Below are positions 44,210 to 46,616 of a DNA stretch of 64,000 bases, piece after piece. Position numbers and translations under genes: made by a program. The notes beneath the pieces are model-generated. The model was not told the origin of the DNA, did no database searches, and saw only the letters and a program-made list of their open reading frames with translations. This DNA comes from Cellulomonas sp. P24. GTDB taxonomy: Bacteria; Actinomycetota; Actinomycetes; Actinomycetales; Cellulomonadaceae. Location of the stretch: the NCBI RefSeq assembly GCF_024704385.1, contig NZ_JAJDFX010000002.1, positions 558,001 through 622,000 on the forward strand. The letters are read 5' to 3'. Each line of letters opens with the position of its first letter. Positions within the stretch are counted from its first letter, which is position 1.

Positions 44210-44701
44210 TCAGCCGACCGGCACCCGTCCCCGTGCTGCCTCGGGCACGCGCATCGTGCCGAGGGACACCCCGATCCCGTACGTGAGGAAGTGGTCCTCC
44301 GGCGTGATCTCGATGATCGCGCTCGACGAGCGGCGGTTCGGCGGGAGCAGCCCGGACAACCGGTCCAGCACCACGCCCATCGCCGGGTCGTCCGCGGGGT
44401 GCACACTCGCCGTGCCGTGGAACGAGATGGTCGCCGGCGGGATCGGGAAGAGCAGCGACAGCAGCCCTCCGCGTCGCACCAGGACCGTCATCGAGACGCG
44501 TCCGTCGGCCCGGATGTGCCGGTCCTTCCAGGTGCCCGGCGCGATGGCGACGTACAGGCGTCGGTCGATCGAGCGGTAGACGACGCCGCTCGTGCGGGGC
44601 GCACCGTCCGGGGTGACATGACCCAGCACGGCGTTCGACGCCCTGGCGATCGTGTCCCAGACCTGCTCGGTGCTCACGTTCGGGGTGCTCGCTTCGGTCA
44701 T
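44210..44701 (-). CDS. Pyridoxamine 5'-phosphate oxidase-like (PPOX) flavin/F420 protein
   Basis: A 163-residue split-barrel protein. GHVTPDGAPRTSGVVYRSIDRRLYVAIA followed by TWKDRHIRADGRVSMTV resembles the PPOX family that binds FMN, F420 or haem. It starts MTEASTPNVS at 44701. The cofactor cannot be told by eye; with F420 genes nearby F420 is possible. It is divergent from the cys leader region. Confidence 0.7.
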   Translation of the reverse strand: MTEASTPNVSTEQVWDTIARASNAVLGHVTPDGAPRTSGVVYRSIDRRLYVAIAPGTWKDRHIRADGRVSMTVLVRRGGLLSLLFPIPPATISFHGTASVHPADDPAMGVVLDRLSGLLPPNRRSSSAIIEITPEDHFLTYGIGVSLGTMRVPEAARGRVPVG

Positions 44702-44774
44702 GTCCCAGGATTATTCCGCACGAGCCCGCGGGGCGAGGGACCATGGTCGCCCCAGAGAGGATGTCCACCAGTCG

Positions 44775-44823
44775 GGAGGAATCCTCCACAGCCTTTGCGT
44801 GTTAGGTACACCAGAGCTAGCGT
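44775..44823 (+). promoter_or_regulatory. Probable cysK-cysE promoter with palindrome
   Basis: TTGCGT (44795-44800) and TAGCGT (44818-44823) are spaced by 17 bases, giving a transcript start near 44830. Just upstream GGAGGA-A-TCCTCC (44775-44787) is an inverted repeat that may be an operator. The leader peptide starts about 30 bases after the predicted transcript start. Confidence 0.5.
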
Positions 44824-44860
44824 CATGCCGACGCTGGCCCGATCTGAGGAAGGACGCGCG

Positions 44861-44941
44861 ATGCCCCGCACCTGCTCGCCGTCCGTGCGCAGCGGTTCGT
44901 CGACGGCACACGTCCTGATCTCCACGTGTTGCTGTCGGTAG
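44861..44941 (+). CDS. Poly-cysteine leader peptide (26 aa) of the cys operon
   Basis: A short ORF from ATG 44861 to TAG 44939-44941 encodes 26 residues, MPRTCSPSVRSGSSTAHVLI then STCCCR, with three consecutive Cys codons (TGT TGC TGT, 44927-44935) near the end. GAGGAAGGA at 44846-44854 is a strong ribosome-binding site. It resembles the actinobacterial polycysteine leader ORFs that sense cysteine through ribosome stalling. It precedes cysK by 147 bases. Translation is inferred, not shown. Confidence 0.8.
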   Translation: MPRTCSPSVRSGSSTAHVLISTCCCR

Positions 44942-45034
44942 AGCGCTGACGCGGCCCTGTCGGTCGCCGCAGCGGAGCGCCGCGCGCGCTCTGCCAGCGC
45001 TCGCCCCGGCCCTCGCCGGCCCGACCACGGCGAG
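44941..45034 (+). promoter_or_regulatory. Putative cysteine-responsive attenuator
   Basis: GAGCGCTG (44941-44948), starting at the last base of the leader stop codon, is exactly complementary to CAGCGCTC (44995-45002). The latter overlaps CTCGCC (45000-45005), which can instead pair with GGCGAG (45029-45034), supported by CCGGC/GCCGG inside. The two hairpins are mutually exclusive, and a ribosome stalled at the Cys codons would cover the first arm. Function is inference. Confidence 0.5.
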
Positions 45035-45088
45035 ACCTCCCCGCACACCACAGGGCCCCGATCGGCCCGCTCCCAGACGAGGACTCTC

Positions 45089-46024
45089 ATGGCACGCATC
45101 TACGAGAACGCGACGCAGCTCATCGGCAACACTCCCCTGGTCCGCATCAACAAGCTGACCGCCGGGTCGACCGCGACGGTCGTCGCGAAGCTCGAGTTCT
45201 ACAACCCCGCCAACTCGGTCAAGGACCGCATCGGTGTCGCGATCATCGACGCCGCCGAGGCGTCCGGCGAGCTCACGCCCGGTGGCACCGTCGTCGAGGC
45301 GACCAGCGGCAACACCGGGATCGCACTCGCGTTCGTCGGTGCGGCACGCGGCTACCACGTCGTGCTGACGATGCCCGAGTCGATGTCGAAGGAGCGGCGC
45401 GCCCTGCTCCGCGCATTCGGCGCCGAGCTGATCCTCACCCCGGCGGCACTCGGGATGAAGGGCGCCGTGGACGAGGCCGACCGGATCGCCGCCGAGCGTC
45501 CCGGCTCGGTCCTCGCGCGCCAGTTCGCGAACAAGGCGAACCCGGAGATCCACCGCCGCACCACGGCCGAGGAGATCTGGGCGGACACCGACGGCGAGGT
45601 CGACATCGTCGTCGCCGGCATCGGGACGGGCGGCACGATCACCGGCGTCGGTCAGGTGCTCAAGGAGCGCAAGCCGAGCGTCCAGATCGTCGGCGTGGAG
45701 CCGGCCGAGTCGCCGATCCTCAACGGCGGCGCGCCCGGTCCGCACAAGATCCAGGGCATCGGGGCGAACTTCATCCCGGAGATCCTCGACACGACGATCT
45801 ACGACGAGATCATCGACATCGACGGTGACACGGCCGTCGCTGTCGCCCGGCGGGCCGCCAAGGAGGAGGGCCTGCTGGTCGGCATCTCCTCCGGCGCGGC
45901 GCTCCAGGCCGCGATGCAGCTCGCGGCCCGGCCGGAGAACGCCGGGAAGCTGATCGTCGTGATCATCCCGTCCTTCGGCGAGCGGTACCTGTCCTCCGTC
46001 CTCTACGCCGACCTGATGGACTGA
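45089..46024 (+). CDS. cysK: Cysteine synthase A (O-acetylserine sulfhydrylase)
   Basis: PLP enzyme making cysteine from O-acetylserine and sulfide. The 311-residue protein has the PLP lysine in [11 protein letters not shown] (K45), the substrate loop [12 protein letters not shown], and the phosphate loop [14 protein letters not shown]; it ends [21 protein letters not shown] lies before ATG 45089. It is followed by cysE 7 bases downstream and preceded by the poly-Cys leader. Confidence 0.97.
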
Positions 46025-46031
46025 GCTTCCG

Positions 46032-46616
46032 ATGAGCGGTGTGCGCGCGTTCTGGTCCGTCCTCAAGGACGACCTCGAGGTGGCTCGGCAACGGGACCCT
46101 GCCGCCAGGTCACGGATCGAGGTGGCGCTCGCGTACCCGGGCGTCCACGCGGTGTGGGCCTACCGGCTCGCCCACCGCATGTGGCGCGAACCCGGGCTGC
46201 GGCTGCCCGCCCGCCTGCTCTCGCAGGCGACGCGGGCCGCCACCGGGATCGAGATCCACCCGGGTGCACGGCTCGGCCACCGGCTGTTCATCGACCACGG
46301 CATGGGCGTGGTGATCGGCGAGACCGCCGAGGTCGGCGACGACGTCGTGCTGTTCCACGGCTCGACGCTCGGCGGCCGGTCGATGCGTCACGGGAAGCGG
46401 CACCCCACCCTCGGAGACGGTGTGGTGGTCGGCGCGGGGGCGAAGATCCTGGGGCCCGTGTGGATCGGCTCGAACGCCCAGATCGGCGCGAATGCGGTGG
46501 TCGTCAAGGACGTCCCGGCTGGAGCGGTCGCGGTCGGCGTGCCTGCCCAGATCCGCCTCCGGGCCGAGGTCCGGAACTGGGACGTGGAGATCGACGACCC
46601 GGCCATCTACATCTGA
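46032..46616 (+). CDS. cysE: Serine O-acetyltransferase
   Basis: Makes O-acetylserine for CysK. The 194-residue protein has an N-terminal helical part ([20 protein letters not shown]) and a left-handed beta-helix of hexapeptide repeats ([37 protein letters not shown]), with catalytic His in FIDHG. It is the short form of the enzyme that lacks a long N-terminal extension. It follows cysK in the same operon and ends before a strong terminator. Confidence 0.95.

Follow-up and report, generated by a model that had tools for sequence, protein, structure and literature searches.

In mycobacteria, short leaderless open reading frames (ORFs) with runs of cysteine codons reportedly precede cysteine-synthesis genes, and Canestrari and colleagues are said to have proposed in 2020 that they sense by ribosome pausing. 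As far as the accessible text of two papers goes, such mycobacterial poly-Cys leaders act by translation attenuation (PMC13236596; PMC9031893); leaderless attenuators of mycobacteria are also mentioned in the accessible text of a third (PMC9094748). The available sections of an earlier study list candidate Cys leader peptides for cys operons of Mycobacterium and Propionibacterium acnes and for cbs of Bifidobacterium longum, and cellulomonads are not among the species named there (Seliverstov et al. 2005; PMC1262725). For Mycobacterium, the same sections report no conserved hairpin able to act as a terminator and describe the polyY motifs as non-conserved; they propose Rho for the mycobacterial cys leaders, on evidence that the authors themselves call weak. 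Actinobacterial Cys leaders have thus been predicted since 2005, and outside the mycobacterial work the mode of action of those that lack a terminator was left open there.

Rho also takes part in attenuators governed by an upstream ORF (uORF), of which tnaC is one. In the portions of their descriptions at hand, TopAI is another, and the copper leader CruR uses a CXXC motif together with Rho. In Streptomyces lividans, the accessible text of a survey lists eight leader peptides, none of which is named for cysteine (PMC8079986). According to Table 4 of that survey, the leaderless metL leader, located before metNIQ, ends in CMCRRMCAF and has three Cys near its end; judging from this entry, metL might be a Cys rather than a Met leader. 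A literature search, with subscription papers mostly outside its reach, returned no described Cys leader that is led by a Shine-Dalgarno (SD) sequence and carries a hairpin anchored on its stop codon.

The locus described here resembles the mycobacterial leaders in having a short ORF with a terminal Cys run before cysteine-synthesis genes. It differs from them in that the cysK leader is SD-led (its 5' end being predicted), in a hairpin anchored on the stop codon, the foot of which is invariant, and in a fixed TGT codon. With the leaders in the available sections of PMC1262725 it shares the Cys run near the stop, the lack of a terminator and Rho as a possibility; unlike the Mycobacterium leaders treated there, it possesses one conserved and covarying hairpin at the stop codon. 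Like tnaC, CruR and TopAI, it combines a uORF with control before a structural gene, in this case across a C-rich spacer without a U-tract. Unlike in those systems, the signal here would be Cys-tRNA, the hairpin is anchored on the stop codon and the involvement of Rho is inferred.

A cysteine-codon leader ORF upstream of cysK-cysE

The window, that is, the whole stretch of 64,000 nucleotides that was analysed (G000:C2:558001-622000), belongs to a 4.4-Mb actinobacterial genome; positions given below count from its first base, and all features lie on the plus strand unless stated otherwise. It carries cysK, encoding cysteine synthase A (45089..46024; TIGR01139, E 1.5e-133), the product of which is closest, among named relatives, to those of Cellulomonas and its kin (best match Cellulomonas hominis, 88%), followed by a gene for a cysE/epsC-type serine O-acetyltransferase (46032..46616; NF041874, E 2.8e-72; TIGR01172, E 1.6e-70). 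An SD sequence, GAGGA, precedes cysK at 45079..45083. A preliminary description of the locus had placed an SD-led ORF of 26 codons with a Cys-Cys-Cys-Arg-stop end upstream of these genes, and such an ORF is indeed found at 44861..44941. It encodes MPRTCSPSVRSGSSTAHVLISTCCCR*, ends in TGT TGC TGT CGG TAG and is preceded by the SD sequence GAGGAAGGA (44846..44854). Its three Cys codons span 44927..44935, and the last of them, TGT 44933-44935, occupies the invariant position two codons before TAG.

A putative promoter was read from the sequence, consisting of a -35 element, TTTGCG (44794..44799), and a -10 element, TAGCGT (44818..44823), separated by an 18-nt spacer; the leader mRNA is predicted to begin at about 44829-44831. 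Similar TTTG elements are seen by eye in relatives, in which TANN[GT]T boxes are broadly scattered 28-92 nt upstream of the leader starts. A scan with the sigma-70 consensus reported no promoter at the leader locus. An inverted repeat, AGCGTC-N5-GACGCT (44819-44835), overlaps the putative -10 box; it was not seen in the more distant relatives inspected by eye. A leaderless start at the in-frame ATG 44825 was considered and set aside, since this codon precedes the predicted 5' end and relatives keep the SD-led start. Within the genus of the window a start of this kind is possible, and a second member of the genus (G002/L084) has the ATG too.

ORFs of this type are rare in the genome. Among 486 SD-led short ORFs (8-45 codons, ATG or GTG, each in-frame start counted separately) in 284 kb of it, both strands included, the leader is the only one with at least three Cys in its last eight codons; without the requirement for an SD and a start, 21 of 5750 stop-delimited frames have them. 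The pattern TGTCNNTAG[AG]GC occurs within 600 nt upstream of cysK at 33 of 80 named loci; neither the opposite strand nor the reversed sequence has it at any of the 80. Together, these counts rule out a chance ORF.

The part that relatives retain is a strict sequence pattern, TGT-CNN-TAG-[AG]GC, after which comes a hairpin that has the final base of the stop codon as its foot. After removal of duplicates and of candidates scoring below 7, 106 distinct candidate leaders were retained, 92 of which end in TAG, 11 in TGA and three in TAA, several of the non-TAG ones probably not being leaders. TGT is the second codon before the stop in 91 of the 92 TAG leaders, and the codon between the two begins with C in all 92. 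Their other Cys codons, in frame and before the fixed one, number 259 (146 TGC, 113 TGT). The preliminary description had made its reading depend on conservation of the ORF, and by these figures and the motif counts above the ORF is conserved. Its claim of an SD-led rather than a leaderless form likewise holds beyond the window: an SD is present in 90 of 92 TAG leaders, a number favoured by the choice of candidate ORFs, in which an SD earned a bonus, and a -10 box at leaderless distance in none of them.

Upstream of the Cys codons, the peptides of relatives vary in length and sequence, as expected if the Cys codons, not the peptide product, are selected. Searches of Pfam (six peptides) and NCBIfam (nine peptides) yielded no leader-peptide family matches. 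These properties bear on two other readings of the ORF. In the first, the nascent peptide or its thiols would sense metal or redox state, as in CruR, and not Cys-tRNA. Cys-rich ends could bind metal, CruR joins its CXXC motif to Rho, and two Gordonia leaders resemble each other in peptide sequence; however, the number of Cys ranges from one to nine among leaders with variable spacing, and the downstream genes make cysteine. Moreover, CruR has a DUF2946 domain and a C-terminal RAPP, whereas the leader here, without a Pfam match, ends in CCCR. We consider this reading very unlikely. Even less probable is the second, in which the ORF goes unused and the conserved entity is an RNA hairpin or a protein site that happens to contain TGTCNNTAG. 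The invariance around the stop codon is indeed at the nucleotide level, but SD and start are kept in 90 of 92 leaders (chosen with the SD bonus), and the 259 extra in-frame Cys codons of these leaders argue against it as well.

The hairpin at the leader stop codon

The preliminary description had also noted an exact 8-bp hairpin with its first arm starting at the stop codon, and this inverted repeat is present at 44941-44948 / 44995-45002. On comparative grounds, namely species-matched pairing and covariation in addition to the repeat itself, the arms extend to 44941..44950 (5' arm), the first base of which is the G of TAG, and 44993..45002 (3' arm), with one mismatch in the window, A44949 x C44994.

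Comparison with relatives, which had been called for to look for covariation, gave a clear answer. An alignment (A1) was compiled of 53 rows, comprising mutually different loci with a stem score of at least 8/9 plus four of a divergent-stem class; six further loci meeting this selection were excluded by hand. In A1, 94.9% of the stem cells are paired, a value biased upward because the rows were mostly chosen for their stem, compared with 29-44% in controls slid by one to three columns. In the unselected set, 82 of 92 TAG leaders reach at least 8/9 stem pairs. At six of the ten stem pairs both partners have changed in a compensatory manner, with exchanges such as CG to UA and UA to CG. Of 28 region pairs tested, the duplex between the 5' arm and the 3' arm is species-matched (z -10.3), and the strongest pairings among the other 27 (z -2.5 and -2.4) fail correction for 28 tests. 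Related genomes enter these statistics as independent observations, which inflates the apparent strength of p-values and z-scores; the compensatory changes are less affected. The alignment columns without variation read TGTC..TAG.GC on the 5' side and GCTC on the 3' side.

In the window alone, the hairpin is not significant against shuffles (p 0.077), and the fold of the whole leader has a z of -1.2. As the stem of this single locus is not unusual for the window sequence, support for the hairpin is comparative. The hairpin loop is more folded than shuffles (mean z -1.2). In a folding model with ribosome footprints imposed by us, the mean stem probability falls from 0.84 with no ribosome to 0.22 when one occupies the last Cys codon and to 0 when it occupies the stop. 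Rfam covariance models have no match at 44700-45100.

A covariance model built from the 53 loci of A1 matches 173 of 221 genomes of the family (E <= 0.01, training genomes included), 50 of 297 genomes of the order (E <= 0.001) and three of 394 genomes of the class (E <= 0.001); searches over 40 genomes used filters that lose weak matches. The three class matches are in the genome of the window, in one genome of the family and in L217, and the last, the sole match outside the order in this search, was rejected, having neither the motif nor cysK. Just downstream of the match, cysK is found at all 30 model loci returned by the order search (that of the window included) and at 12 of 12 further model-match loci. 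A possible second copy in the genome of the window (E 0.07) was discarded as well, with neither cysK nor the motif nearby; by eye, it sits in a GGDEF-type gene. The exact pattern occurs once in this genome.

The family genomes without a model match (48 of 221) include, among those listed, a Cellulosimicrobium-like genus (g6), the Cys leaders of which look different. In Cellulosimicrobium and g6 (L006, L007, L021, L023, L122-L129), the Cys leaders of cysK end in TGA and show no stop-anchored hairpin; the second half of the switch may be lost or different in these leaders. Both these leaders and the family genomes without a match count against the mechanism proposed below. Two of three Gordonia loci (L047 and L049) carry, at a distance of about 100-210 nt before cysK, an SD-led leader whose only Cys occupies the TGT-CNN-TAG place. 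The two share a similar peptide, FAH[ST]V..LTDHC[RQ]*, and this similarity may point to a peptide effect. A stop-anchored hairpin is visible by eye in L047, and the third locus (L058) has no such leader. Among 26 wider genomes of the order and class, none has TGTCNNTAG near cysK (one has it at -564), and a few have leaderless-looking Cys leaders of cysK, such as ...DSCCRCCC* in G556. Upstream of cysK in L274, L276 and L281 (family f44) and in L271, the peptide L[FL]TR.R..DF recurs ahead of Cys codons, apparently in leaderless form; perhaps these leaders form another actinobacterial class of sulfur leader peptide.

The SD-led, stop-anchored form is thus chiefly, though not exclusively, found among the cellulomonads of the order and in some families close to them. 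The leader feature is real and under strong selection.

The region between the hairpin and cysK

According to the preliminary description, the 3' arm of the hairpin takes part in a second, mutually exclusive hairpin. An overlap of this kind is present in the window, where CTCGCC 45000-45005 / GGCGAG 45029-45034 shares 3 nt with the first stem; a stronger repeat, CTCGCCG 45012-45018 / CGGCGAG 45028-45034, does not overlap it. By eye, the repeats of the second hairpin look preserved in one other genome of the genus. Across the relatives, the exclusive hairpin is not conserved. The 3' arm together with its native downstream sequence folds no better than its shuffled counterparts (mean z -0.15, n=74; -1.71 for the window alone); for this and for the folding of the spacer, 74 of 79 loci were used, five with too short a spacer having been dropped. 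Because only the pairing between 5' arm and 3' arm is clearly species-matched and the 3' arm has no conserved competing partner, the two-hairpin layout appears not to be kept by selection, and what the hairpin does is not visible from the sequence. The proposed layout of a stalling-based attenuator sensing Cys-tRNA thus stands as far as the conserved Cys codons, the SD-led start and the stop hairpin are concerned, and fails in its exclusive second hairpin. Pairing of the leader end with the 5' arm (region 1:2) was likewise rejected (mean z 0.03; window alone -2.6).

These results weigh on the reading of the locus as a classical trp-type attenuator, in which a terminator and an antiterminator hairpin would alternate. 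As in the trp type, a leader peptide with regulatory codons, here Cys, immediately precedes a hairpin that would be covered by a ribosome standing on the stop codon, the stop-codon hairpin resembles trp region 2, and the window offers a second hairpin nearby and a 3' arm folding at z -1.7 versus shuffles. Unlike the trp type, the locus has no conserved alternative hairpin and no terminator: a terminator-like site was not found at 44600-45120, nor a TTTT run in any of 49 spacers between hairpin and cysK. An attenuator of the trp type is therefore unlikely here.

A second reading follows the mechanism described for the mycobacterial poly-Cys leaders, in which only a ribosome waiting in the Cys codons would keep the leader RNA from hiding the ribosome-binding site (RBS) of cysK. 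Both the run of Cys codons and the gene order cysK-cysE agree with such translational attenuation. Nevertheless, the predicted accessibility of the cysK SD is alike whatever the position of the ribosome (0.445 with no ribosome, 0.460 at the last Cys and 0.459 at the stop; n=49). No species-matched pairing was found between the cysK RBS and the leader SD, the Cys tract, either arm or the loop (z -1.2 to +1.0), and the RBS pairs less than expected by chance with the bases just upstream (z +3.4). In addition, the distance between hairpin and cysK varies from 52 to 232 nt (74 loci, all with at least 50 nt there). Judging from the folding model, the RBS-hiding RNA structure of the mycobacterial leaders would be absent here, and we regard the mycobacterial type of control as improbable, if less so than a trp-type attenuator. 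With no terminator, no TTTT run, a flat SD accessibility and these RBS pairing results, neither a trp-type terminator switch nor RBS sequestration is visible.

Two further candidates were dropped. Pairing of the Cys tract with the cysK start, hinted at by one consensus fold, is not species-matched (R2:R6, z -0.5). A starvation frameshift past the stop into a frame reaching cysK finds no support in the open frames: at 35 of 53 loci the +1 frame is open, where 36.2 would be expected. At the same 53 loci, the leader's own frame past the stop is open in 42 (36.1 expected) and the third frame in 20 (35.1 expected); none of the three frames past the leader stop has a codon-position GC bias.

Between hairpin and cysK, the spacer has a rut-like composition, rich in C and poor in G. 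In the window (45003..45074), its skew, (C-G)/(C+G), is 0.36. Among relatives the mean is 0.33, with positive values at 49 of 49 loci, as opposed to 0.05 upstream of the leader. Ranked among 103 upstream regions of the genome of the window, which rest on rough, self-made gene calls and average 0.008, the spacer comes second. The one region with a stronger C-over-G skew (0.64) lies upstream of a gene at L221 12168-13659 (minus strand) and may be another Rho-type leader. Stretches of C over G are typical of Rho loading sites, and for this reason Rho is suggested. The composition fits the expectation for a rut site and is not proof of one, as part of the skew is also seen at cysK without the motif: among named cysK loci, the skew is 0.10 without the motif versus 0.28 with it, the motif-less group including Cellulosimicrobium and Oerskovia loci with a Cys leader of another form. 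The folding of the spacer does not help the Rho reading either: a rut site ought to be open, yet over its first 70 nt the spacer shows slightly more structure than shuffled sequence (mean z -0.59, n=74).

Proposed Cys-tRNA sensing and a second leader in the genome

Taken together, the ORF, the fixed Cys codon, the covarying hairpin, the odd composition of the spacer and the linkage to cysK, all of them sequence-based, make it highly likely that a leader-peptide attenuator sensing Cys-tRNA lies upstream of cysK-cysE. Very probably, the leader would serve as a switch for increasing cysteine synthesis under cysteine shortage. The Cys codons, the downstream genes and the mycobacterial precedent are the grounds on which scarce Cys-tRNA is proposed as the signal.

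In the mechanism that we propose, ribosomes would load at the leader SD. With ample Cys-tRNA, the ribosome would reach TAG and, before departing, cover about ten bases beyond it, which correspond to the hairpin's 5' arm; the footprint length is the textbook one. With Cys-tRNA scarce, the ribosome would wait at the Cys codons and, at the last TGT, its leading edge would meet the hairpin foot, since five bases (CNNTA) separate this codon, when in the A site, from the foot of the stem. The hairpin's state as RNA polymerase moves into the C-rich, G-poor stretch would thereby depend on where the ribosome stands. This stretch would load Rho, such that fast translation of the leader leads to a stop before cysK and a waiting ribosome to readthrough. 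Rho-dependent termination before cysK may be the output, although we propose this part tentatively. A ribosome-based Cys-tRNA sensor with a hairpin and a Rho-loading spacer is, as a whole, the best explanation of the locus, and we hold it to be reasonably probable. That the waiting ribosome means ON, and which state of the hairpin is permissive, is a guess, because a ribosome at an earlier Cys codon, like no ribosome at all, leaves the hairpin whole.

In keeping with such sensing, a second poly-Cys leader is present elsewhere in the same genome, on the plus strand at G000:C2 1467384-1467458 (L231 7384-7458). It is a GTG ORF ending in RACCCR* (TGT TGT TGT CGT TGA), its promoter reads TGGACA-17-TAGCCT, and the GTG follows 6 nt after, an arrangement of the leaderless type. 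Downstream lies a NirA/sulfite-reductase-like gene (L231 7653-9590), for which the label of sulfite reductase leans on two adjoining PAPS-reductase-family genes because its family matches fall below the curated cut-offs; the gene set is probably a sulfite reductase operon. Hence, in this genome, the Cys leader of leaderless type stands before a probable sulfite reductase operon and not before cysK. From 29 sulfite reductase loci, 16 were taken, with starts chosen by eye among those listed; four were left out as doubtful and nine have no Cys-rich ORF. In all 16 leaders (that of the genome of the window included), the start lies 6-8 bases after a -10-like box, and none of the 16 has an SD; the leaders of relatives have a TGA stop.

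New in the present locus is its sharp geometry, with a fixed TGT, a stop codon inside the helix and an invariant G-[AG]-GC/GCTC foot, and with matches in 173 genomes of one family. This geometry makes the question of Rho directly testable. More tentatively still than the Rho output, we suggest that the locus may represent a new architecture, in which one stop-footed hairpin and a fixed TGT gate a Rho-loading stretch without a competitor, a terminator or RBS sequestration, next to a leaderless sulfite reductase leader. The findings suggest that SD-led and leaderless Cys sensors coexist in one genome, as separate sensors do in mycobacteria, here built from different parts. If the new architecture holds true, one genome would run two mechanically different Cys-tRNA sensors.
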